Part shown: piece after piece, positions 7,282-18,089 of the stretch
Position numbering within the stretch: the stretch's first letter is position 1
Layout of the letters: every line of letters begins with the position of its first letter
Assembly: GCF_001894925.1 (NCBI RefSeq)
Contig: NZ_BCXD01000003.1
Location: forward strand, 124,001 to 188,000
Direction of reading: 5' to 3'
DNA length: 64,000 nt
From: Rhodococcus rhodnii NBRC 100604
Lineage (GTDB): Bacteria > Actinomycetota > Actinomycetes > Mycobacteriales > Mycobacteriaceae
Program-made: the position numbers and the translations under genes
The notes under the pieces: model-generated
Told to the model about the DNA's origin: nothing
Database searches by the model: none
The model's input: the letters and a program-made list of their open reading frames with translations, nothing else

Positions 7282-8643
7282 TCACTGTGCTCGGCTGACC
7301 GACGACATGTGGAAGTCGGGGATGCGCAGTGCGGGCATCGCGGTGCGGGTGAACCAGTCCTTCCATTCGCGCGGCAGGGTGCGTTCGGTGGCCCCGGCCT
7401 CGGTGGCGCGCCGCAGCAGGTCGAGCGGACTCTCGTTGAACCGGAAGTTGTTCACGGCAGCCCGCACCTCGCCGTCCTCGACGAGATACACGCCGTCGCG
7501 GGTGAGCCCCGTGAGCAGCAGCGTGGTGGGGTCGACGTCGCGGATGTACCAGAGCGTGGTGAGCAGCAGTCCGTGTTCGGTCGAGGCGATCATCGCGTCG
7601 AGGTCGGTCGTGGAGTGCGAGTGCAGGATCAGGTTGTCGCCGGGCACGGCGACGGGCGCGTCGAAGCGGTGTGCGCTCGCGCGGGAGTAGGCGAGGGCCG
7701 CGATCGTGCCGTCCGCGATCCACTCGACGGCGTCCGCCGTCATCCCGTTGTCGAACAGCGAGAGCGCGTCACCGGAGGACTCGGTCGCGACGAACGGCCG
7801 GTACCCGATGCCGGGTGCGGTCGGGTCGCTCACGAGCGCGAGTGGCAGCGACGTGAGCCGTTCGCCGACGCGGGTGCGCCCCTCGGGGGCCGCGAACGCC
7901 GATCGGCCCTCGTGGGCGGCGCGTCCCTCCATCGCCCACATCAGCGGGATCAGGAGATCGGCGACGGTGGACGGCGGCAGCAGCGTCTCGTAGCGGCCGG
8001 CTGGCAGCGAGACGGTGCGCGCCGACCAGTCCAGTCGCCGCGCGGCGTCCGCGAGCAGTGCCTCGGTGTCGACGTCGGTGAAGTCGGTGGTTCCCGCCCC
8101 GACCCAGACGCTCGCGTCGCCGCGTTTGGCGTTGATCTCGATCGACCCGGTCGGCTGGACGTGCCGGCGTCGCACCCCCGTCGACGTTCCGAGGGTCACC
8201 GTCTCGGCTGCGTGCTCGGCGTACCCGTACAGCGGGTCGGGTCCGCCGAATCCTGTGGCGAGGGCGTCGACGACACCGGCAAGAACGTCGAAGTCGGTGG
8301 TCGCCGCGTCGTCGCCCCAGTCCGGGTCCTCGGCGCCCGCGACGAGCGGCGCGGTGTCGTCGACGGGTTCGGCTGCCCGCGCGGCGTCCTCCGCGGCCCG
8401 TACGACGGCGGCGACGGCGTCGGGGTCGGTGCTCGCGGATCCCACGACACCGATGCGCGTGCCGCCGGTCGACCGCAGCAGCGAGATCACAGTCCAGTGC
8501 CGTGCGGTGGTCAGCCCGTTCGTCGTCGGCGACCCGCCCGCCCACCGGACGTTCGTCTCCGCGCGGTCGGTGACGATGCACATCGTCTCGTCGGCGCGCG
8601 CGGCACGCAGTACCCGTTCGACGAGGTCACCTGCGGGGATCAT
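7282..8643 (-). CDS. TldE/PmbA-family metallopeptidase subunit
   Basis: The 453-residue protein is the non-catalytic partner in TldD/TldE protease complexes, which unfold and cleave small modified peptides. It shows the family pattern WAGGSPTTNGLTTARHW near the N-terminus, the central LPAGRYETLLPPSTVADLL and the C-terminal HSHSTTDLDAMIASTEHGLL. The metal motif is in the partner. Its start overlaps the tldD stop by 4 bp, so the pair is co-translated. No peptide substrate gene is visible nearby. Confidence 0.9.
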   Translation of the reverse strand: MIPAGDLVERVLRAARADETMCIVTDRAETNVRWAGGSPTTNGLTTARHWTVISLLRSTGGTRIGVVGSASTDPDAVAAVVRAAEDAARAAEPVDDTAPLVAGAEDPDWGDDAATTDFDVLAGVVDALATGFGGPDPLYGYAEHAAETVTLGTSTGVRRRHVQPTGSIEINAKRGDASVWVGAGTTDFTDVDTEALLADAARRLDWSARTVSLPAGRYETLLPPSTVADLLIPLMWAMEGRAAHEGRSAFAAPEGRTRVGERLTSLPLALVSDPTAPGIGYRPFVATESSGDALSLFDNGMTADAVEWIADGTIAALAYSRASAHRFDAPVAVPGDNLILHSHSTTDLDAMIASTEHGLLLTTLWYIRDVDPTTLLLTGLTRDGVYLVEDGEVRAAVNNFRFNESPLDLLRRATEAGATERTLPREWKDWFTRTAMPALRIPDFHMSSVSRAQ

Positions 8644-10160
8644 CGTCCACCCTCCTCACGCGTGTTGAGCACCGAGACGCCCCGGAACAGTGCCGAGGGG
8701 CAGCCGTGGCCGACGGCGGCGACCTGCCCCGGCTGGCCCTTGCCGCAGTTGAACGCGCCGCCGAGCACGCGCGTCGAGGGGCCGCCGACCGCCTCCATCG
8801 CGTTCCAGAAGTCCGTCGTCGTCGCCTGGTACGCGACGTCGCGCACCTGCCCGTCGAGCCTCCCCGAGCGGATGCGATAGAAGCGCTGGCCCGTGAACTG
8901 GAAGTTGTAGCGCTGCATGTCGATCGACCACGACCGGTCACCGACGACGTAGATGCCGTCCTCGACGCCCGCGATCAGATCGGCCGTCGAACGATCGACG
9001 TGCGGGTCCGGTTCGAGCGAGACGTTCGCCATCCGCTGCATCGGCATGTGATGCGCCGAGTCCGCGTACGCGCAGCCGTTGGAGCGCGGCAGGCCAAGCT
9101 TCGCGGCGAACGCGCGATCGACCTGATAGCCGGTGAAGACGCCGTCGGTGATCAGATCCCACGCGCCCGTCTCGACGCCGTCGAAGCCGACCGTCGCGAG
9201 CCCGTGCGGCTCGGTGCGGTCGGCGCGGACCGTCATCGCCTCGCTGCCGTAGCGCAGCGTACCGAGCAGGTCGGGGGTCGCGAACGACGTACCCGCATAG
9301 GCGGCTTCGTAACCGATCGCGCGGTCGTACTCGGTGGCGTGCCCGATCGACTCGTGGATCGTGAGCCAGAGATTGCTGGGGTCGACGACGAGGTCGGTGG
9401 CGCCCGCACGCACCGACGGCGCGCGCAGCTTCTCGGTGAGCAGCGACGGCAGTGCGTCGAGTTCGCCGGTCCAGTCCCAGTGCTCGTCGCCCGCGACGTA
9501 TTCCCAGCCGCGTCCGGTGGGTGGTGCCAGCGTGCGCATCGAGTCGAACTCGCCGGTGGCGGTGTCGACCGCGACGGCCGTCACCTCGGGATGCACGCGG
9601 ACACGCTGCTGCACGATCGACGAGCCCGCGAGGTCGGCGTAGAAGACCTGTTCCTTCACGAGCAGGGCACTCGCCGACACGTGGGCGACTCCCGGTGCCG
9701 CGAGCAGGGTCCGCGACCGCTCCGCGAGCACCGCCAGCTTGTCGCCGACGGACAGCGAGAACGGATCCACCTCGTACTCCGAGACCCACACCGCGTCCCG
9801 GTGCACGGACTCGTCGGCCAGAACGACCGGGTCACGGACGAGGGGTGCGAGTCGCCGGGCGACCGTCACCGCGCGGCGCGCCGTGGCCGCCGCGGCGTCG
9901 CGGGTCGGCTCGGCGTGCGACGCGAACCCCCACGCCCCGTTCACCAGCACGCGGACGGCGATGCCGAGGTCCTCGTCGTCCACGGCGGACTGGACCGCGC
10001 CGTCGCGCAACTGCAGCGACTGCGAGCGCACCCGGTGCACGCGCACGTCCGCATGCTCCGCGCCGGCCGCGCGCGCCGCGCTCAGTGCGGCGTCGGCGAG
10101 ACCCGCGTGGTCGAGTGCGAGGAAGTCGCTGTCGATCTCGTGAGTGGGCACGATCGACAC
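8640..10160 (-). CDS. tldD: TldD-family zinc metallopeptidase
   Basis: The 506-residue subunit carries the catalytic HExxxH motif in WLTIHESIGHATEYDRAIGY, followed by the conserved GTSFATPDLLG and the C-terminal glycine-rich TRVLGGAFNCGKGQPGQVA. TldD and TldE form a barrel that degrades extended peptides; known roles are microcin maturation and CcdA degradation. The N-terminal ADVRVHRVRSQSLQLRDG matches the domain start, so the ATG at 10160 is kept. It lies upstream of, and overlaps, tldE in a two-gene operon. The TSUP exporter gene begins 14 bp beyond its 5' side. Confidence 0.92.
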   Translation of the reverse strand: MSIVPTHEIDSDFLALDHAGLADAALSAARAAGAEHADVRVHRVRSQSLQLRDGAVQSAVDDEDLGIAVRVLVNGAWGFASHAEPTRDAAAATARRAVTVARRLAPLVRDPVVLADESVHRDAVWVSEYEVDPFSLSVGDKLAVLAERSRTLLAAPGVAHVSASALLVKEQVFYADLAGSSIVQQRVRVHPEVTAVAVDTATGEFDSMRTLAPPTGRGWEYVAGDEHWDWTGELDALPSLLTEKLRAPSVRAGATDLVVDPSNLWLTIHESIGHATEYDRAIGYEAAYAGTSFATPDLLGTLRYGSEAMTVRADRTEPHGLATVGFDGVETGAWDLITDGVFTGYQVDRAFAAKLGLPRSNGCAYADSAHHMPMQRMANVSLEPDPHVDRSTADLIAGVEDGIYVVGDRSWSIDMQRYNFQFTGQRFYRIRSGRLDGQVRDVAYQATTTDFWNAMEAVGGPSTRVLGGAFNCGKGQPGQVAAVGHGCPSALFRGVSVLNTREEGGR

Positions 10161-10173
10161 CGTAACCGGCTCG

Positions 10174-10941
10174 TCAGCCGAACTGCTGCCATCCGAGCCG
10201 GATCACCATGCCGACGACGACGATCAGCAGCGTGACCCGGACGAAGCCCGCGCCCTTGCTGATCGCCATCCGCGACCCCACCACGGCGCCGAGGACGTTG
10301 CACACAGCCATCGCGAGGCCGAGTGTCCACCACACGCTTCCCGTCGCGGCGAAGAACGTGAGGGCTCCGATGTTCGAGCCGAGGTTGAGGACCTTCGCCA
10401 TCGCGGCGCTGCGCACGAACTCCGTCCCCAGCAGCGTCGCGAACGTGAGGATCAGAAAGGTGCCCGTGCCCGGGCCGAGAATCCCGTCGTAGTAGCCGAT
10501 GACGGCGGCGGCGGTGAGAACGACGAGCAGCATCCGGCGCTTGGTCGGCGGCGTCGCGGGAGCCGTCGTACCGATCGTGGGACGCAGCGTCACGAAGACG
10601 GCGACCGCGATCAGCACGCACATGATGATGGGGACGAACAGATCACGGTCGATGAGCGAGACCGTGGCCGCGCCCGCCGCGGACGTCAGCGCCGCGAGAA
10701 CACCCGCGGGCAGCAGCACCCGCAGGTTCATCGGCACGCGCCGTGCGAACGTCAGCACCGCCGCCGTCGTCCCGGTGCAGGCGGTGAGCTTGTTGGTGCC
10801 CAGTGCCGTCGCCGGCGACAGATGCGGTGCCGCCAGCAGGATCGCGGGAAGCAGGATCAGGCCACCGCCACCGACGACGGCATCCACCCATCCGGCGGCC
10901 GTCGCCGCGACGAGCAGAACCGTCCAGTCGAGTGCACCCAC
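10174..10941 (-). CDS. TauE/SafE (TSUP) family membrane exporter
   Basis: The 255-residue polytopic membrane protein has about eight hydrophobic segments. Two half repeats include AGWVDAVVGGGGLILLPAIL with LGTNKL near the N-terminus and YYDGILGPGTGTFLI in the second half, the two glycine-rich signatures of the TSUP family. Such proteins export sulfite, sulfoacetate or other small organosulfur anions, but the substrate cannot be read from sequence. The start is GTG 10941. It sits 14 bp upstream of tldD on the same strand and could be the first gene of that operon. Confidence 0.85.
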   Translation of the reverse strand: MGALDWTVLLVAATAAGWVDAVVGGGGLILLPAILLAAPHLSPATALGTNKLTACTGTTAAVLTFARRVPMNLRVLLPAGVLAALTSAAGAATVSLIDRDLFVPIIMCVLIAVAVFVTLRPTIGTTAPATPPTKRRMLLVVLTAAAVIGYYDGILGPGTGTFLILTFATLLGTEFVRSAAMAKVLNLGSNIGALTFFAATGSVWWTLGLAMAVCNVLGAVVGSRMAISKGAGFVRVTLLIVVVGMVIRLGWQQFG

Positions 10942-10988
10942 CGGATCATTCGATCATTGCCGATACCGCGACCGTAGAGTGGCCCGGT

Positions 10989-11687
10989 ATGCGACCGACG
11001 AGCGAGAAGATCCTGCGCGAACTGGCGGAGCACGCTCGCGACTGGCGGCTTCCCGAGCAGAGCCTCGACGACCTGCTGCGCGAGATCACTCGCTCGGCGC
11101 TGGCGCTGATTCCCGGGTGCGAGAGCGTCGACGTCCTCATGATCGAGGCGGACGGCACCTTCACCTCGCGGGCCGCGACGAGCGAGTCCGTCGAACGGCT
11201 CGACGCGTTGCAGATCTCGCTCGGGGAGGGGCCCTGTGTCGCCGCGGCGACAGCGCCCGAGGCCGCGACCACGGTCAGCCAGGACATGAACGACGAGACT
11301 CGCTGGCCCCGCTTCGCTCGCGCCGCCGCCGAGGCGGGCGTCGGCAGCATGGTCTCGGTGCGCCTCTACACGCGGGAGGGAAGGATCGGCGCGCTCAACG
11401 TCGTCGCGCCGGCCCCCGGCGCCTTCGACGACGATGCGATCGTCGTCGCCGAGTCCCTCGCGGCGCATGCGGCGTCGACGATCGTCGCCAACACGCTCGA
11501 GCACCAGCTCCGGTCGGCCGTCGCGAGCCGCGACGTCATCGGCCAGGCCAAGGACATGATCATGGAACGCTACGGCCTCGACGCCGCCGCGGCGTTCCGG
11601 ATGCTCTCCGGCATCTCGCAGAACACGAACTCGCCGCTGATCGAGGTCGCGCGGACCGTCGTCGAGCACTCCGGCGAGAACGCCTGA
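10989..11687 (+). CDS. GAF-ANTAR RNA-binding regulator
   Basis: The 232-residue protein has an N-terminal GAF domain (about 20-165; the signature region is LGEGPCVAAATAPEAATTVS) and a C-terminal ANTAR domain (about 172-230) with ASRDVIGQAKDMIMERYGLD and AAAFRMLSGISQNTNSPLIEVA. ANTAR domains bind paired RNA hairpins and prevent transcription termination. In actinobacteria such proteins respond to redox or small-molecule signals. It is divergent from the TSUP gene and convergent with the sigma factor gene, whose end is only 8 bp away. Its RNA targets are not obvious in this window. Confidence 0.9.
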   Translation: MRPTSEKILRELAEHARDWRLPEQSLDDLLREITRSALALIPGCESVDVLMIEADGTFTSRAATSESVERLDALQISLGEGPCVAAATAPEAATTVSQDMNDETRWPRFARAAAEAGVGSMVSVRLYTREGRIGALNVVAPAPGAFDDDAIVVAESLAAHAASTIVANTLEHQLRSAVASRDVIGQAKDMIMERYGLDAAAAFRMLSGISQNTNSPLIEVARTVVEHSGENA

Positions 11688-11694
11688 TCGGGAA

Positions 11695-12387
11695 TCACCC
11701 CGCCGCGTCGAGCGTCCGCCGCAGCCCGGCGAGGGTCGCCCGCAGCTCCCGGGACACCTGCATCTGCGAACACCCGAGATCGTGCGCGATCGTCGTCTGC
11801 GTCATGTCGAGGACGAAGCGCATGTGCAGCAGCTGCTGCGGCCGCTCGGGCAGCGCGCCGACCGCGGTCCGCAACTCGAGCGTGTCGTCGACCCGATCGA
11901 GGTCGTCGTCGTGGTGCAGGGCACGGGCACTCTGCTCGGTCGCCGCGTCGAGCAGATCCGTCCGGTACGCCGAACGCGCGGCGAGCGCACGCGCCATGAC
12001 CTCGACGCTCACCCCGTAGTGGGCCGCGAGTTCGTCGGTGGTCGGTGGCCGGCCGTGACGAGCCTCGAGCCGGGCCGCGACCTCGTCGAGAGACCCCTGG
12101 ATCTCCTTCGCCGAGCGCGCGACGGCGACCGGCCACGTGCAGTCGCGAAAGTACTTGCGTATCTCGCCGACGATCGTCGCCGACCCGTACGTCTCGAAGC
12201 GGACCCCACGATCCGGATCGAACCGTCGCAGTGCCGTGACGAGCCCGCAGTACGCGACCTGCTGCAGATCCTCGAGCGGCTGGCCACGCCCCGCGTAGCG
12301 GCGGGCCAGGGCCTCGGCGAGCGGGCGGTGACGCTGCACCGCCGCAGCGAGATCGGCATCGGTCGAGCGGGAATCGGGTGCGGTCAT
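11695..12387 (-). CDS. SigF/SigB-family RNA polymerase sigma factor
   Basis: The 230-residue group 3 sigma factor has region 2 (LAEALARRYAGRGQPLEDLQ, then FDPDRGVRFETYGSATIVGE), region 3 (PPTTDELAAHYGVSVEVMAR) and region 4 (LPERPQQLLHMRFVLDMTQT, with the helix-turn-helix CSQMQVSRELR). This order and RF-ETY-IVGEIRKYFRD are typical of stress sigma factors of the SigF/SigB/SigG type. ATG 12387 is preferred to an upstream GTG that adds a non-homologous extension. No anti-sigma gene is adjacent. A SigF-like promoter lies 150 bp away, facing the divergent stress genes. Confidence 0.92.
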   Translation of the reverse strand: MTAPDSRSTDADLAAAVQRHRPLAEALARRYAGRGQPLEDLQQVAYCGLVTALRRFDPDRGVRFETYGSATIVGEIRKYFRDCTWPVAVARSAKEIQGSLDEVAARLEARHGRPPTTDELAAHYGVSVEVMARALAARSAYRTDLLDAATEQSARALHHDDDLDRVDDTLELRTAVGALPERPQQLLHMRFVLDMTQTTIAHDLGCSQMQVSRELRATLAGLRRTLDAAG

Positions 12388-12542: not shown

Positions 12543-12568
12543 GTTTGTCGCATGCGGTGTTCGGGTAG
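12543..12568 (+). promoter_or_regulatory. SigF/SigB-type promoter
   Basis: GTTT at 12543-12546 and GGGTAG at 12563-12568 are separated by 16 bp. This matches the actinobacterial SigF consensus GTTT-N15-17-GGGTAT at all but the last base. It lies 41 bp before the small zinc-ribbon gene and next to the divergent SigF-like gene, so the adjacent sigma factor is its likely user (inference). Confidence 0.7.
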
Positions 12569-12608: not shown

Positions 12609-12842
12609 ATGGCCACCTGTGAAACCTGCGGAAACGACTACGACAAGACCTTCACCCTGACGCGCGGCGACCGCACGGGGGTCTTCGACAGCTTCGAATG
12701 CGCTGCCCAGGCGATGGCGCCGCAGTGTGCGCACTGCGGCACGCGCATTCTCGGGCACGGGGTCGAAGCCGGCGACACCGTGTACTGCTGCGCCCACTGC
12801 GCGCGTGCCGCCGGCGCCGCACAGCTCACCGACCGCGCATGA
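12609..12842 (+). CDS. Small cysteine-rich zinc-ribbon (metallothionein-like) stress protein
   Basis: The 77-residue cytoplasmic protein contains nine cysteines in CETCGNDYD, FECAAQ, CAHCGTRILGHGVE and YCCAHCARA, a pattern that should bind one or two metal ions. The closing GHGVEAGDTVYCCAHCA is shared by many small actinobacterial proteins annotated only as hypothetical or metallothionein. ATG 12609 follows GAGGAG. A SigF-like promoter lies upstream and an SDR gene follows after 16 bp, which suggests a general-stress operon. Metal identity and role are unknown. Confidence 0.75.
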   Translation: MATCETCGNDYDKTFTLTRGDRTGVFDSFECAAQAMAPQCAHCGTRILGHGVEAGDTVYCCAHCARAAGAAQLTDRA

Positions 12843-12858
12843 CCGAAGGGAGTTCTCG

Positions 12859-13707
12859 ATGACCGAGCAGACGCCGCACCGCATCCCCTACCCCGGGGAG
12901 ACGGGCGAGATGGCGGAGGAACCGCACGACGAGATGCGCTCCTATCAGGGCCGCGGACTGCTGGCCGGCAAGAAGGCGCTGGTCACCGGCGGCGATTCGG
13001 GGATCGGCCGCGCGGTCGCCGTCGCTTTCGCGAAGGAGGGCGCCGACGTCGCGATCGCCTACCTCTCCGAGGACTCGGACGCCGAGCACACCGCCGCCCT
13101 GGTGCGCGAGCAGGGAGTGACCGCTGCGGTCCTGCCCGGCGATCTCGCGGATCCCGCACACGCCCGCGGCATCGTCGAGGCCACGGTGCAGCAGCTCGGC
13201 GGCCTCGACGTCCTCGTCAACAACATCGCCTACCAGTCGCCCGTCGACGACTTCCTCGAGCTGACGCCCGACCAGTGGGACCACACCTTCGCGGTGAACA
13301 TCGACAGCTTCTTCCACACGACGCGCGCCGCAGTCGAGCACATGCCCCGCGGCTCGGCGATCGTCAACACCGGATCGATCAACGGGTTGCGCGGCAACAA
13401 GACTCTGATCGACTACTCCGCCACCAAGGGCGCGGTCACGGCGCTGACGTACTCGCTCGCCCAGTCGCTGCTCGATCGGGGGATCCGGGTCAACTGCGTC
13501 GCCCCCGGCCCGGTGTGGACGCCACTCATTCCCGCGACGCTGCCCGCGGACAAGGTCGGCGACTTCGGCGCACAGACGCCGTACGGCAGGGCCGCACAGC
13601 CCGACGAGATCGCGCCGTCGTACGTCTTCTTCGCCTCGGAGCAACTGTCGTCGTACTACACAGGAGAAGTGCTCGCCCCGATCGGCGGCGAGACGCTGCC
13701 CGGCTGA
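12859..13707 (+). CDS. SDR oxidoreductase of the general-stress type (YhxC/YghA-like)
   Basis: The 282-residue short-chain dehydrogenase has a family-typical N-terminal extension ending in GRGLLAGKKALVTGGDSGIG, which contains the NADP loop TGGDSGIG. It also has NNIAYQ, TGSING and the catalytic DYSATKGA motif, followed by VAPGPVWTPLIP. Members with this extended N-terminus are common in stress regulons of actinobacteria and bacilli and reduce aldehydes or ketones. The AGGGAGT ribosome site precedes ATG 12859. It is the second gene of the presumed SigF-dependent operon. Confidence 0.9.
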   Translation: MTEQTPHRIPYPGETGEMAEEPHDEMRSYQGRGLLAGKKALVTGGDSGIGRAVAVAFAKEGADVAIAYLSEDSDAEHTAALVREQGVTAAVLPGDLADPAHARGIVEATVQQLGGLDVLVNNIAYQSPVDDFLELTPDQWDHTFAVNIDSFFHTTRAAVEHMPRGSAIVNTGSINGLRGNKTLIDYSATKGAVTALTYSLAQSLLDRGIRVNCVAPGPVWTPLIPATLPADKVGDFGAQTPYGRAAQPDEIAPSYVFFASEQLSSYYTGEVLAPIGGETLPG

Positions 13708-13732
13708 GCCGGGCCGACGAAAGGAACGCGTC

Positions 13733-14014
13733 ATGCCGAAGGAATCCGGCCGATCCGACGATCAGCCCGAGCTGAAGGATCAGGACCTCTACGAGAAGCT
13801 GCGCGACGAGGGCAATTCGAAGGAGAAGTCGGCGCGCATCTCCAACGCGGCGGCGAACCGGGGCCGCAGCGCCGTGGGCCGCAAGGGCGGGCACGCGGAG
13901 GCCTACGAGGAGTGGACCGTCGACGAACTCAGGTCGAGGGCGAAAGAGCTGGGCATGACCGGGTATTCGGACATGAACAAGGGCGACCTGATCGACGAAC
14001 TCCGGAACCACTGA
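13733..14014 (+). CDS. Small Rho_N/SAP-like stress protein
   Basis: The 93-residue protein has a charged N-terminal part with LKDQDLYEKLRDEGNSKEKS and ARISNAAANRGRSAVGRKGG, a block common to actinobacterial stress proteins. It is followed by a Rho N-terminal/SAP-like motif, WTVDELRSRAKELGMTGYSD, which may bind nucleic acid. It starts 26 bp after the SDR gene, with AAAGGA upstream of the ATG. A second Rho_N protein occurs at 37288 with a near-identical C-terminal motif. Function is unknown. Confidence 0.8.
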   Translation: MPKESGRSDDQPELKDQDLYEKLRDEGNSKEKSARISNAAANRGRSAVGRKGGHAEAYEEWTVDELRSRAKELGMTGYSDMNKGDLIDELRNH

Positions 14015-14136
14015 CTCCGAGCCCGCCGGATTCCGGCGTCACCGTGGCGACGCGTCCACCCCAGCGGACGCGCCGGGGTCGCTACGGTCGACACACGGGT
14101 CGAACCTTGGCGACCCGCCGACAGACGGGAGATCAC

Positions 14137-14445
14137 ATGGCACCGGACGAAGGACACGATCGGGCACCGGGCGCCGCGGCCGGGCACGAGCGTGCCGCGG
14201 AGGCGCCGGGTGGAGCGACCGGACCGCGCTCGCGCGAACGCTTTCTCACCATCGTTCTCGCGCTTCTCACCGTGGTGGCGGCAGGACTGTTCCTGACCGC
14301 GCTCGCGGGCGGATTCGCCGGGTGGGCGTGGATCGCGGGACCGGTGGCACTCGTGCTCGCCGTCCTCACGCTCCTGGTGATGCGGGACGCCCGGCGCCGC
14401 CGGAACGACCCCATCGTCTACACGCCCGACAACGAACGCCCTTGA
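14137..14445 (+). CDS. Small membrane protein, two transmembrane segments
   Basis: The 102-residue product has a hydrophilic N-terminus of about 30 residues, then two hydrophobic helices (FLTIVLALLTVVAAGLFLTA and GWAWIAGPVALVLAVLTLLV), then a basic cytoplasmic tail RDARRRRND. No enzyme motif is present. Its stop overlaps the TTG start of the glycosyltransferase gene (TTGA), so it may be the lead gene of the GT/ACAD/PIG-L/methyltransferase operon rather than the last of the stress operon. The role is unknown. Confidence 0.7.
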   Translation: MAPDEGHDRAPGAAAGHERAAEAPGGATGPRSRERFLTIVLALLTVVAAGLFLTALAGGFAGWAWIAGPVALVLAVLTLLVMRDARRRRNDPIVYTPDNERP

Positions 14446-15167
14446 CCGTCCAGGCGACGACCGTCCGCGCGACACGAACGGAGCCGGACCGGGTCGCGGT
14501 GATCGTTCCGGTACACAACGAAGCGGAACTGCTGCCCCGGTGCATCGCCTCGCTGCGGCGCGCAGCGGCGCCGTGCCCCGTGCCGGTGACGATCGTGGTG
14601 GTTCTCGACGCGTGCGACGACGGCTCGAACGCGACCGTGTCGCCCGCCCGGGATCTCCTCGTCGTGGAGACCTCGGCGCGCAACGTCGGGGCCGCGCGCC
14701 GGGCCGGGTTCGCGGCGGCGCTGTCCACCGGCTGCTCGGACACGTGGCTCGCGACCACCGACGCCGACACGGTCGTGCCGGAGCGCTGGCTGGCCGCGCA
14801 GGCGACGCACTGGGGACGTTGCGACGCGCTGCTGGGCACCGTCACCGTCGACTGGCACACGTACGGGCTCGACGTCCGCCGCCGCTACGACGCGCGATAC
14901 CGCGCAGGGACGAGAGGCGGCCGCCACACGCACGTGCACGGCGCGAACCTCGGCGTGTGGGCCGACGCCTACCGCGACGTCGGCGGGTTCCGTCCGCTGC
15001 GCAGCGGTGAGGATGTGGATCTGGTGCGGCGGCTGCGGGCGCGGGGTGCCCGCGTGCACTCCGTCGTCGACAATCCCGTGCTCACGTCGGATCGGGTGCG
15101 CGGCCGGGCACCGGCGGGTTTCGCCGGCCATCTGCGCACGATCTCGCAGGAGGTGGCAGCGCCGTGA
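14442..15167 (+). CDS. Family 2 glycosyltransferase
   Basis: The 241-residue GT-A enzyme has the standard RVAVIVPVHNEAELLPRCIA opening, the nucleotide-sugar region VVVLDACDDGSN, an RNVGAARRAGFAAAL motif and the metal-binding TTDADTVVPERWL. A later HVHGANLGVWADAYRDVGGF is typical of GT2 acceptor loops. The start is TTG 14442, overlapping the preceding stop. No membrane segment is present. The next gene starts inside its last codons (GTGA). Donor and acceptor are unknown, but the deacetylase downstream suggests an N-acetylated sugar. Confidence 0.85.
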   Translation: MTVQATTVRATRTEPDRVAVIVPVHNEAELLPRCIASLRRAAAPCPVPVTIVVVLDACDDGSNATVSPARDLLVVETSARNVGAARRAGFAAALSTGCSDTWLATTDADTVVPERWLAAQATHWGRCDALLGTVTVDWHTYGLDVRRRYDARYRAGTRGGRHTHVHGANLGVWADAYRDVGGFRPLRSGEDVDLVRRLRARGARVHSVVDNPVLTSDRVRGRAPAGFAGHLRTISQEVAAP

Positions 15168-16096
15168 GCACCGACGTCGATGTCACCACGCTGCTGCCGC
15201 TGCCGGGCGAGGGCGAGACCGCGGGGCGCTGGGACGCGCTGATCTCCGCCGCGCGGCGCGACCTCGTGGCGGCGCGCTTCCTCGAGGCACACAACGACGC
15301 CGCCGCGATCCTGCACGAGCTGGGCGCCGACGCGCCGCGCCCGGGGCAGTGGTGGGGCGTGTGGGCCGCCGAACCGCCCGATCCCGTGCTGCGCGCCGTC
15401 GCCACCGACGCGGGCCACCGGTTGCGTGGCCGCAAACCGTGGTGTTCGGGCGCGCATTCGTGCACGCACGCACTCGTCACCGCCACCCGTGAGGACGGCC
15501 GAGTCCAGTTGTTCGCGGTCGATCTCGGACAGCCCTCGGTGCGGCCGGTTCCGGACAGCTGGCACGCGATCGGGATGGCCGCATCCGACTCGGGTGCAGT
15601 CGATTTCGACGACGTGCCGGCGCAGCCGATCGGCGAACCGGGCGACTATCTCGCGCGCCCCGGCTTCTGGCACGGCGCGATCGGGGTCGCCGCGTGCTGG
15701 TTCGGCGGGGCACTGGCCGTCGGTGACGCGCTGCGCGACAGCAGGCGTGACGATCCCTTCACGCTCGCTCATCTCGGTGCGGTCGACGCTGCCGAATACG
15801 CCGCACGCGCCGCTCTCGAGGCTGCGGCGCGAGAGACGGACCTCGCCCCGGACGACACCGACGCGGCCCGGATCCGGGCCCGCCGGGTGCGGGCGATCGT
15901 GGAACACGTCGCGACCGCCACGATCGACCGGGTGGGCAGGGCACTCGGACCGGGCCCCCTCACGGCGAATCGGCGACATGCCCAGCTGGTCGCCGATCTC
16001 GGCGTCTATCTGCGGCAGAGCCACGCCGAACGCGACCTCGCCGCCCTCGGCGCGGATGCGCGCGCCGTCGGCACCGACGGCGAGGGGGCGCGATGA
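15164..16096 (+). CDS. Acyl-CoA-dehydrogenase-like protein of a GT/PIG-L operon
   Basis: The 310-residue protein looks like a shortened acyl-CoA dehydrogenase (usual length about 380). It has LRAVATDAGHRLRGRKPWCSG in the place of the flavin-contacting LSGxKxxxSGA segment, a middle beta domain, and the helical C-terminus with RHAQLVADLGVYLRQSHAERD. The usual catalytic glutamate context is not recognisable. It is coupled by GTGA to the glycosyltransferase and by ATGA to the deacetylase. It may dehydrogenate or desaturate an acyl group on the product (inference). Confidence 0.75.
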   Translation: MSTDVDVTTLLPLPGEGETAGRWDALISAARRDLVAARFLEAHNDAAAILHELGADAPRPGQWWGVWAAEPPDPVLRAVATDAGHRLRGRKPWCSGAHSCTHALVTATREDGRVQLFAVDLGQPSVRPVPDSWHAIGMAASDSGAVDFDDVPAQPIGEPGDYLARPGFWHGAIGVAACWFGGALAVGDALRDSRRDDPFTLAHLGAVDAAEYAARAALEAAARETDLAPDDTDAARIRARRVRAIVEHVATATIDRVGRALGPGPLTANRRHAQLVADLGVYLRQSHAERDLAALGADARAVGTDGEGAR

Positions 16097-16857
16097 GCGG
16101 TGACGAGACCCGATGGGGGAGTGCGCGTCTCGCTGCGACGCCGTCCGAGAGCAGCGGAACCCCCGCATCCGTCTGGGCGCGACTGGTTCCGCCGCCACTG
16201 GACACGAGCGACTGCCCGGGCGCCGTCGTCGTCGCCCCGCATCCCGACGACGAGGTCCTCGGCGTCGGCGGACTGGCCGCACTGCTCGCCGCGGCGGGGG
16301 TGAGCGTCCGAACCGTCGCGGTCACCGACGGCGACGCGTCCCACCCGGGGTCTCCCACGTGGAGCCGCGACCGTCTGGTGCGTGCACGAATCGGCGAATC
16401 ACAGCGTGCGGCGGCACATCTCGGACTCGACCCACCCCGCCGGCTGGGGCTTCCCGACGGTGACGTCGGCGCCCACGAGGCCCGCCTCACCGAGGAGATC
16501 GCCGGTCTTCTGCGTCCGGGCTGGTGGTGCCTGACGACGTGGCGCGGCGACGGCCACCCCGACCACGAGGCGACCGGACGCGCGAGTGCACGCGCGGCCC
16601 GAAGCGCCGGTGCGCGACTGCTGGAGTTCCCGATCTGGGCCTGGCACTGGGGGACACCCGACGACCCGCACATCCCGTGGGGCAGGGCCAGGGCAGTGGA
16701 ACTGCCGCCCGACGTGCACGCCGCCAAGCGCCGCGCGATCGACGAGTTCGTCACGCAGACCGCGCCGCTGTCGGAGGACCCCGCCGACCGCGCGATCCTG
16801 CCGCCGCACATCCTCGAACGCTTCCTCGGCACGCGCGAGACGGTGTTCGTCTCGTGA
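16093..16857 (+). CDS. PIG-L family N-deacetylase
   Basis: The 254-residue LmbE/PIG-L protein has the metal-binding motif APHPDDEVLGVGG at about residue 45 and the second motif GDGHPDHEATG. These zinc enzymes remove N-acetyl groups from sugars, as MshB does in mycothiol synthesis and PIG-L in GPI anchors. It is not MshB-like in length or context. ATG 16093 overlaps the previous stop, and the methyltransferase starts inside its last codons. Together with the glycosyltransferase it suggests a deacetylated amino-sugar product. Confidence 0.88.
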   Translation: MSGDETRWGSARLAATPSESSGTPASVWARLVPPPLDTSDCPGAVVVAPHPDDEVLGVGGLAALLAAAGVSVRTVAVTDGDASHPGSPTWSRDRLVRARIGESQRAAAHLGLDPPRRLGLPDGDVGAHEARLTEEIAGLLRPGWWCLTTWRGDGHPDHEATGRASARAARSAGARLLEFPIWAWHWGTPDDPHIPWGRARAVELPPDVHAAKRRAIDEFVTQTAPLSEDPADRAILPPHILERFLGTRETVFVS

Positions 16858-17510
16858 GCCGGCTACCGGACGAATACTTCGACGCGATGTACCGGGACGC
16901 GCGCGACCCGTGGTCGTTCGAGGAGCGCTGGTACGAGCAGCGCAAACGCGCCCTCACGCTCGCGGCGTTGCCGTATCCACGCTTCGCGACGGCCTTCGAG
17001 CCGGGATGCTCGATCGGCGTCCTCACCGCGGACCTGCTCACGCGATGCGACCGCGTCGTCGCCACCGACATCGCGCAGGCCGCACTCGATTCCGCGGCAC
17101 AGCGGCTCGGGCCCGCCGTGACGGACGGCCGCGTGGACTTGCTCCCCCGATCGCTCGACGAACCCTGGCCGGACGAGACGTTCGATCTGATCGTGCTGAG
17201 CGAGGTGGGCTACTACCTGGACGCCGCTGCGCTCGAGCACGCCGCTGCACAGGCCGCGGAGCACCTCGCACCGGGCGGCGTGGTGCTCGCCGTCCACTGG
17301 CGCCACAGCGTCGAGGACTACCCGCTCACCGGTGATGCAGTCCACGAGATCCTCGCGAACCGCCCCGACTGGGTCTGCACCGGCCGCTACCGGGACCGCG
17401 ACGTGATCGTCGAGACGTTCGAGCGGCCCCCCGCGCTATCCGTCGCCGAACGCGGCGGACTCACCGAGCGACCAGGGCGACCGTCGCCGGATCGGGTCCG
17501 CCGGTCATAG
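16854..17510 (+). CDS. NodS-like SAM-dependent methyltransferase
   Basis: The 218-residue class I methyltransferase opens with LPDEYFDAMYRDARDPWSFE, a signature shared with rhizobial NodS, which N-methylates the deacetylated end of chitooligosaccharides. The SAM-binding motif is AFEPGCSIGVLTADLL, followed by DIAQAALDSAA and LPRSLDEPWPDETFDLIVLS. The start is GTG 16854, overlapping the deacetylase stop. It is the last gene of the coupled operon. By analogy with NodB/NodS it may methylate the amine exposed by the PIG-L enzyme (inference). Confidence 0.85.
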   Translation: MSRLPDEYFDAMYRDARDPWSFEERWYEQRKRALTLAALPYPRFATAFEPGCSIGVLTADLLTRCDRVVATDIAQAALDSAAQRLGPAVTDGRVDLLPRSLDEPWPDETFDLIVLSEVGYYLDAAALEHAAAQAAEHLAPGGVVLAVHWRHSVEDYPLTGDAVHEILANRPDWVCTGRYRDRDVIVETFERPPALSVAERGGLTERPGRPSPDRVRRS

Positions 17511-17606: not shown

Positions 17607-18089
17607 TCACATGATCGGGGATGGGTCGTCGGGTGGAGGCTCGGGACGACCCGACCGCGTGAAGAAGGAGACTCTCCCATTGGTCTCCAAGATCGCGATC
17701 TCGACGTCTGCGAGATCGCGGATCCCGTGCTGTCGCGCATCTGCGCGTAGGTCGTCGATCGACATGCGTTCGGATCGCAGGCGCTTCGCCACCGGTGTGC
17801 CGTTCTCCACGATCACCACCGGAATCCCCTGTGTGACACCACGGGTTCGCGGGAACCGTGCGTTCGTCCACGACAATGCGAGGGTGAGCAACGCGAACAC
17901 TCCCACCGCCAGCACCGCCGACGTCACCGAGTAGTCCTGTTGTGTGACGCCCTGCTGCACCAGATCTCCCATGACGATGAACAACACCAGTTGGAACGTG
18001 CTGAGCTCACCGACCGTCGAGCGACCCACCAGGCGCGTGACGGCCCACAGGAAGAAGAAGACGATCACCGCGCGCACCACGAGTTCCAT
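17607..18089 (-). CDS. DUF421 (YetF/YcaP-like) membrane protein
   Basis: The 160-residue protein has three N-terminal membrane helices (LVVRAVIVFFFLWAVTRLVG, TFQLVLFIVMGDLVQQGV, SAVLAVGVFALLTLALSW) and a cytoplasmic alpha/beta domain with GIPVVIVENGTPVAKRLRSE and MSIDDLRADARQHGIRDLAD, the DUF421 signature. Function is unknown; bacillus members influence spore or membrane properties. The start at 18089 overlaps the upstream gene's stop as TGATG, so the two are coupled. The last residues are a proline-rich tail. Confidence 0.88.
   Translation of the reverse strand: MELVVRAVIVFFFLWAVTRLVGRSTVGELSTFQLVLFIVMGDLVQQGVTQQDYSVTSAVLAVGVFALLTLALSWTNARFPRTRGVTQGIPVVIVENGTPVAKRLRSERMSIDDLRADARQHGIRDLADVEIAILETNGRVSFFTRSGRPEPPPDDPSPIM

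Follow-up and report, generated by a model that had tools for sequence, protein, structure and literature searches.

The 64,000-nucleotide window analysed here (Rhodococcus rhodnii NBRC 100604, contig NZ_BCXD01000003.1, positions 124,001 to 188,000, from a host genome of 4.46 Mb in 70 contigs) carries a cassette of four genes on the + strand at 14442-17510, encoding a GT2 glycosyltransferase (GT), a flavoprotein with the acyl-CoA dehydrogenase (ACAD) fold, a PIG-L zinc N-deacetylase, and a NodS-like S-adenosylmethionine (SAM) methyltransferase (MT). On the comparative sequence evidence, the chances are about equal for and against these four core genes forming one mobile, stress-tied biosynthetic pathway to a small N-methylated amino-sugar compound. 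The four-gene unit, the catalytic motifs kept in three of the four enzymes, and the company of stress and trehalose genes are supported by the comparison of loci, and the order of steps, the use of N-acetylglucosamine (GlcNAc), and the N-methylation are suggested by family knowledge. The cassette and the gene in front of it are as follows.

14137..14445, + strand: 102-aa membrane protein (hydrophobic maximum 2.63 at residue 39), a neighbour outside the conserved core
14442..15167, + strand: core gene 1, GT2 glycosyltransferase, 241 aa (PF00535, 1.2e-14; TTG start unproven)
15164..16096, + strand: core gene 2, ACAD-fold flavoprotein, 310 aa, N-terminally shortened (PF02770; structure model; Foldseek)
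16093..16857, + strand: core gene 3, PIG-L zinc N-deacetylase, 254 aa (PF02585, 2.7e-25)
16854..17510, + strand: core gene 4, NodS-like SAM methyltransferase, 218 aa (PF05401, 5.6e-10)

These five open reading frames (ORFs) span 14137-17510, with successive pairs overlapping by 4 bp (TTGA, GTGA, ATGA, and GTGA), and both the overlaps and the Pfam families are as the original prediction described them. Its five-gene unit of fixed stoichiometry was revised on both counts. The membrane protein, for which a Pfam scan gave nothing above cut-off, had no homologue at the corresponding position in the other clusters among the fetched loci and was therefore placed outside the conserved unit, and the overlaps suggest translational coupling instead, the first (TTGA) being plausible yet unproven because of the uncertain start of the GT gene.

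Recurrence and proposed mobility of the cassette

The genome sample comprised 80 named loci, taken from the top of 556 confirmed matches to an ACAD-like profile, and leans to close relatives. Between 55 and 58 of these 80 loci (55 by the stricter hidden Markov model count) had all four core genes on the same strand, with the order GT-ACAD-PIGL-MT in 37 and ACAD-PIGL-MT-GT in 18; GT came first in Rhodococcus, Nocardia, and mycobacteria and last in Streptomyces and Pseudomonas. Among 61 related genomes, 39 had an ACAD homologue, and GT, PIG-L, and MT stood alongside it in nearly all fetched loci. The co-occurrence of the four families, which the original prediction had proposed as a check, was recovered across genomes, in varying order and, in other phyla, rearranged yet complete. 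The Legionella cassette reads PIGL-MT-GT-ACAD, and in Cupriavidus basilensis the PIG-L gene stands apart, about 3 kb off on the opposite strand. Moreover, the pairwise distances of the four families correlated at 0.81-0.90 (0/500 permutations), a correlation of which shared ancestry alone explains part.

In addition, a single ORF in a Candidatus Nesterenkonia metagenome-assembled genome fuses ACAD, PIG-L, and the NodS-like MT (L117:5331-7886). MT-GT fusions suspected in Streptomyces and Kitasatospora were rejected as out of frame. As judged from the sequences, the association of the four genes is far beyond chance. A view of them as chance neighbours with no common pathway could draw on the mycobacteria that are without GT and MT, and on a Deinococcus radiodurans plasmid where PIG-L and MT are separated by a DEAD/DEAH helicase gene (L133:8599-11211), but it is contradicted by the same set recurring in shuffled orders across phyla, by the fusion, and by the matching distances, and is considered extremely improbable.

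In a phylum-wide draw of 297 actinobacterial genomes from 193 genera, 36 genomes in 27 genera carried the ACAD marker, a patchy spread as expected for a mobile trait. Furthermore, annotated plasmids of Kitasatospora, Pandoraea, Comamonas, Acinetobacter, Legionella, Paracoccus, Sulfitobacter, Bradyrhizobium, and Novosphingobium carry the cassette, and variant forms occur in Deinococcus and Rubrobacter. Horizontal mobility is part of the pathway reading as a whole and shares its evenly balanced standing. Direct comparison of the GT between the window and Pseudomonas gave 40-44% identity, and therefore no special transfer between the two is claimed; an earlier value of 56% was dropped as an artefact of remote queries.

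Core enzymes and candidate products

The GT2 retained DAD (107-109) and ED (190-191) at 98-100% across 70 loci, and no match to it was found among PDB sequences. Its highest Kyte-Doolittle mean was 1.53, with no membrane span predicted; hydropathy likewise predicted none for the other three core proteins. In the PIG-L, HPDDE (50-54) was kept at 98% and D153/H155/D157/H158 at 97-98% (70 loci), so that the HPDDE and D-x-H-x-D-H zinc motifs, together with PF02585 above cut-off, assign it to the PIG-L/LmbE superfamily; PF02585 was the sole Pfam match, and PF01522 was absent. The MT matched the NodS family PF05401 plus generic methyltransferase models, kept the SAM motif, shared a DPW...EVxYY pattern with NodS, and was 30% identical to NGR234 NodS over 129 aa. 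Its closest solved structure was 4isc (4e-38, residues 25-188), a structural-genomics entry titled only "Methyltransferase" and presumably from Pseudomonas syringae.

The combination of a GT2, an N-deacetylase, and a NodS-family methyltransferase resembles Nod-factor synthesis (NodC, NodB, NodS, and NodA), as the original prediction had remarked. This likeness held as a chemical analogy, and it was strengthened because on a Rubrobacter plasmid with ACAD, MT, and GT a CE4 deacetylase replaces PIG-L, alongside an FAD/NAD(P)H oxidoreductase, and because single GT2-NodS-CE4 polypeptides exist in Gloeothece and on a Mesorhizobium plasmid (L043:4955-8431 and L046:5498-8410); CE4 deacetylases occurred in variant loci only. 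Membership in Nod-factor synthesis did not hold. Judged by its length and hydropathy, the cassette GT is short and soluble, in contrast to the NodC-type membrane chitin synthase, the deacetylase is a PIG-L and not the CE4 NodB, an ACAD-fold flavoprotein is added, and the context is stress and trehalose, not symbiosis. The MT scored 53.8 bits against the NodS model NF041650 (cut-off 300), indicating a homologue outside the equivalog, and no NodA N-acyltransferase was seen in the annotations around the plasmid cassettes or in the scanned window genes.

The same chemistry could serve a surface glycolipid, a lipid-linked oligosaccharide, or a modified exopolysaccharide, in which the four enzymes would assemble or trim an N-methyl-glucosamine unit, to be extended and exported by other glycosyltransferases in a Nod-factor-like manner. 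Extra glycosyltransferase genes 5' of the cassette in Novosphingobium and Paracoccus, a GT4 gene near the cassette in mycobacteria, the NodS-like MT, and the GT2-NodS-CE4 fusions are in keeping with such a product, which is possible but doubtful, given that the four core proteins are without a membrane span, that genes for a flippase, polymerase, or acyltransferase were not seen to recur at the loci, and that embedding in trehalose operons fits a soluble solute better.

The cassette also resembles mycothiol and bacillithiol synthesis (MshA-MshB and BshA-BshB) in pairing a glycosyltransferase with a PIG-L deacetylase that would then act on a GlcNAc glycoside, and BshB and MshB deacetylases act on such glycosides. 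It differs in having no cysteine ligase and in adding a methyltransferase and a flavoprotein; in addition, the glycosyltransferase of mycothiol and bacillithiol synthesis is a GT4, whereas that of the cassette is a GT2. The nearest curated models of the PIG-L were BshB1, BshB2, and MshB, all below cut-off (50, 49, and 30 bits versus 182-224; 30.2/224 for MshB and 50.5/182 for BshB). These models, with katE and ferritin-like genes among the cassette neighbours, could point to a low-molecular-weight redox compound analogous to mycothiol and bacillithiol, that is, a deacetylated GlcNAc glycoside made redox-active by the flavoprotein and the MT. With the sub-threshold scores and the missing cysteine ligase, and as mycobacteria and rhodococci already produce mycothiol, this product is improbable. 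By these comparisons the cassette is outside the Nod-factor, mycothiol, and bacillithiol pathways, with the chemical analogy standing, and no description of it was found in the open-access literature, a scope beyond which most subscription papers lie; the lack of a match to a described pathway noted originally thus persists.

For the ACAD-like protein, Pfam gave only PF02770, the ACAD middle domain (4.5e-8, barely above cut-off), and no PF02771. An alignment-based AlphaFold2 (AF2) model reached a pLDDT of 93.1 and a pTM of 0.91 (single-sequence AF2 gave a pLDDT of 40) and matched many ACAD-fold chains, indicating the three-domain fold with a shortened N-terminal part. The top Foldseek matches were flavin monooxygenases (5gj7/5z8t, DszC, TdsC, and MsuC) and the nitrososynthases KijD3 (1.7e-12) and DnmZ (3.4e-12). 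DszC, TdsC, MsuC, KijD3, DnmZ, and ORF36 share the fold at TM-scores of 0.71-0.79 over the query (E 1e-13 to 1e-11), whereas the cassette protein has about 310 aa versus 390-400, lacks the N-terminal part, and is only 17-24% identical. Ordinary dehydrogenases followed close behind in the ranking. These matches establish the fold but not the reaction, since similarity of a predicted fold alone cannot separate an oxygenase from a dehydrogenase. Longer ACAD relatives in Deinococcus and alphaproteobacteria have an extra N-terminal stretch compared with the window protein. In Deinococcus, the proteins reach about 780 aa (L042:3893-6241 and L133:5543-7882); their additional N-terminal half matches no Pfam family and by eye resembles a glycoside hydrolase.

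The KijD3 and DnmZ matches, along with CalS10 among the weak matches of the MT, could also suggest a secondary-metabolite fragment, making an N-methylated, N-oxygenated amino-sugar antibiotic or signal through a nitrososynthase-like step. DszC/TdsC/MsuC-type monooxygenases, however, rank equal or higher at inseparable TM-scores, no NDP-sugar or polyketide genes were seen nearby, and the surroundings are stress genes, making this origin decidedly improbable.

Stress and trehalose surroundings

The stress-tied aspect of the proposed pathway derives from the neighbours of the cassette. In Comamonas it lies between otsA and otsB, and on an Acinetobacter plasmid it neighbours otsAB, katE, and a DUF421 gene; in Legionella it follows otsB and a GH65 gene, and in Pseudomonas it follows malQ-treY-glgX. 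A trehalose/alpha-glucan operon has been described in P. syringae (PSPTO_3125-3130; PMC8982409), and in seven Pseudomonas loci the cassette is located 3' of treY/glgX; it went unmentioned in the text-searched Pseudomonas literature. As raw counts without a background rate, katE was present in 14 of the 80 genome loci and on six plasmids, topoisomerase IB in 14, LigD in 7, and TreY and GlgX in 7.

Stress-sigma promoter-like sites were seen near the cassette in a minority of loci. EcfG-type GGAACC-N-GGTT sites occur 140 bp upstream of the cassette on two Sulfitobacter plasmids, a GGAACC-N-GTT site precedes the glycosyltransferase run by 93 bp in Paracoccus, and SigF-type sites are oriented to the cassette in nine actinobacterial loci. 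A sigma-70 scan found nothing, and no AlgU-type promoters were found in the Pseudomonas loci.

Proposed pathway and points against it

In the proposed pathway, the GT2 would use a nucleotide sugar as donor to attach GlcNAc (or another HexNAc) to an acceptor in the cytosol, the PIG-L would deacetylate the resulting glycoside, the NodS-like MT would methylate the free amine, and the flavoprotein, whose place in the sequence is provisional, would oxidise the amine or the sugar. The product may guard against desiccation, osmotic, or oxidative stress alongside trehalose and catalase. More specifically and only tentatively, it is proposed to belong to a class of bacterial stress protectant not described before, namely a glucosamine glycoside that would be N-methylated and oxidised by a flavin enzyme and might be carried on trehalose or another cytosolic acceptor. 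Its four-enzyme cassette would have spread by horizontal transfer among Actinomycetota, Pseudomonadota, and, as a variant, Deinococcota within stress-tolerance islands.

Several observations weigh against this pathway. Besides the missing background rate of the neighbour counts, not every locus encodes all four steps, because several mycobacterial loci keep ACAD with or without PIG-L and have neither GT nor MT (L058, L059, L061, L073, L080, L110, and others), which may reflect stepwise loss or alternative use, and because a second PIG-L takes the place of GT2 in three Pseudomonas loci (L101:10384-11277, L106:7317-8366, and L112:10422-11249). As for regulation, SigF-like sites face a divergent neighbour in about two dozen loci, mostly mycobacteria, and since these mycobacterial sites are on the opposite strand, a simple claim that SigF drives the cassette is weakened; matches to promoter motifs are also not proof, and the proximity test used distances picked after looking. 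In mycobacteria, a nucleotidyltransferase-like gene lies divergent from the cassette (L096:6621-7232, - strand, and similar) and is faced by GGTT-N-GGGTA SigF-like sites in about twenty loci.

If true, the pathway would be a widespread, transferable route to an unknown protective metabolite, unnoticed beside trehalose and catalase genes and reaching soil, plant-associated, clinical, and radiation-resistant bacteria. Such a pathway would also represent new natural amino-sugar chemistry, in which deacetylation by a PIG-L is combined with methylation of the NodS type and a flavin step on the ACAD fold, and would make desiccation or osmotic tolerance accessible through a defined set of genes.

Surroundings of the cassette in the window

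The features flanking the cassette are listed below.

11695..12387, - strand: SigB/F/G-family sigma factor, likely start, divergent (TIGR02980, 4.1e-61, below its cut-off)
12543..12567, + strand: SigF/SigB-type promoter-like site GTTT-N16-GGGTA from a pattern scan, 5' of the + strand gene run 12612-17510
12859..13707, + strand: SDR oxidoreductase, upstream (PF13561, 6.7e-58)
13733..14014, + strand: DUF7218/Rho_N protein (PF23855, 3.6e-21), upstream of the cassette in many mycobacteria too
17607..18089, - strand: DUF421 (YetF) protein, convergent (PF04239, 6.3e-15)

The stress sigma factor that had been placed beside the cassette is indeed of the SigB/F/G type, but it is divergent and 1.7 kb away, with three genes in between. 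GKTT..GGGTA-type sites number four in the whole window on both strands, and the promoter-like site at 12543 is as such no evidence of function. The SDR oxidoreductase gene is possibly in the same transcript as the cassette. Further out, an adjacent pair of PmbA/TldD-type metallopeptidase genes lies at 7282-10160 (- strand), and a GAF-ANTAR regulator gene (10803-11687, + strand) adjoins the sigma gene; of the 80 fetched loci with the cassette, 10 also contain GAF-ANTAR genes.

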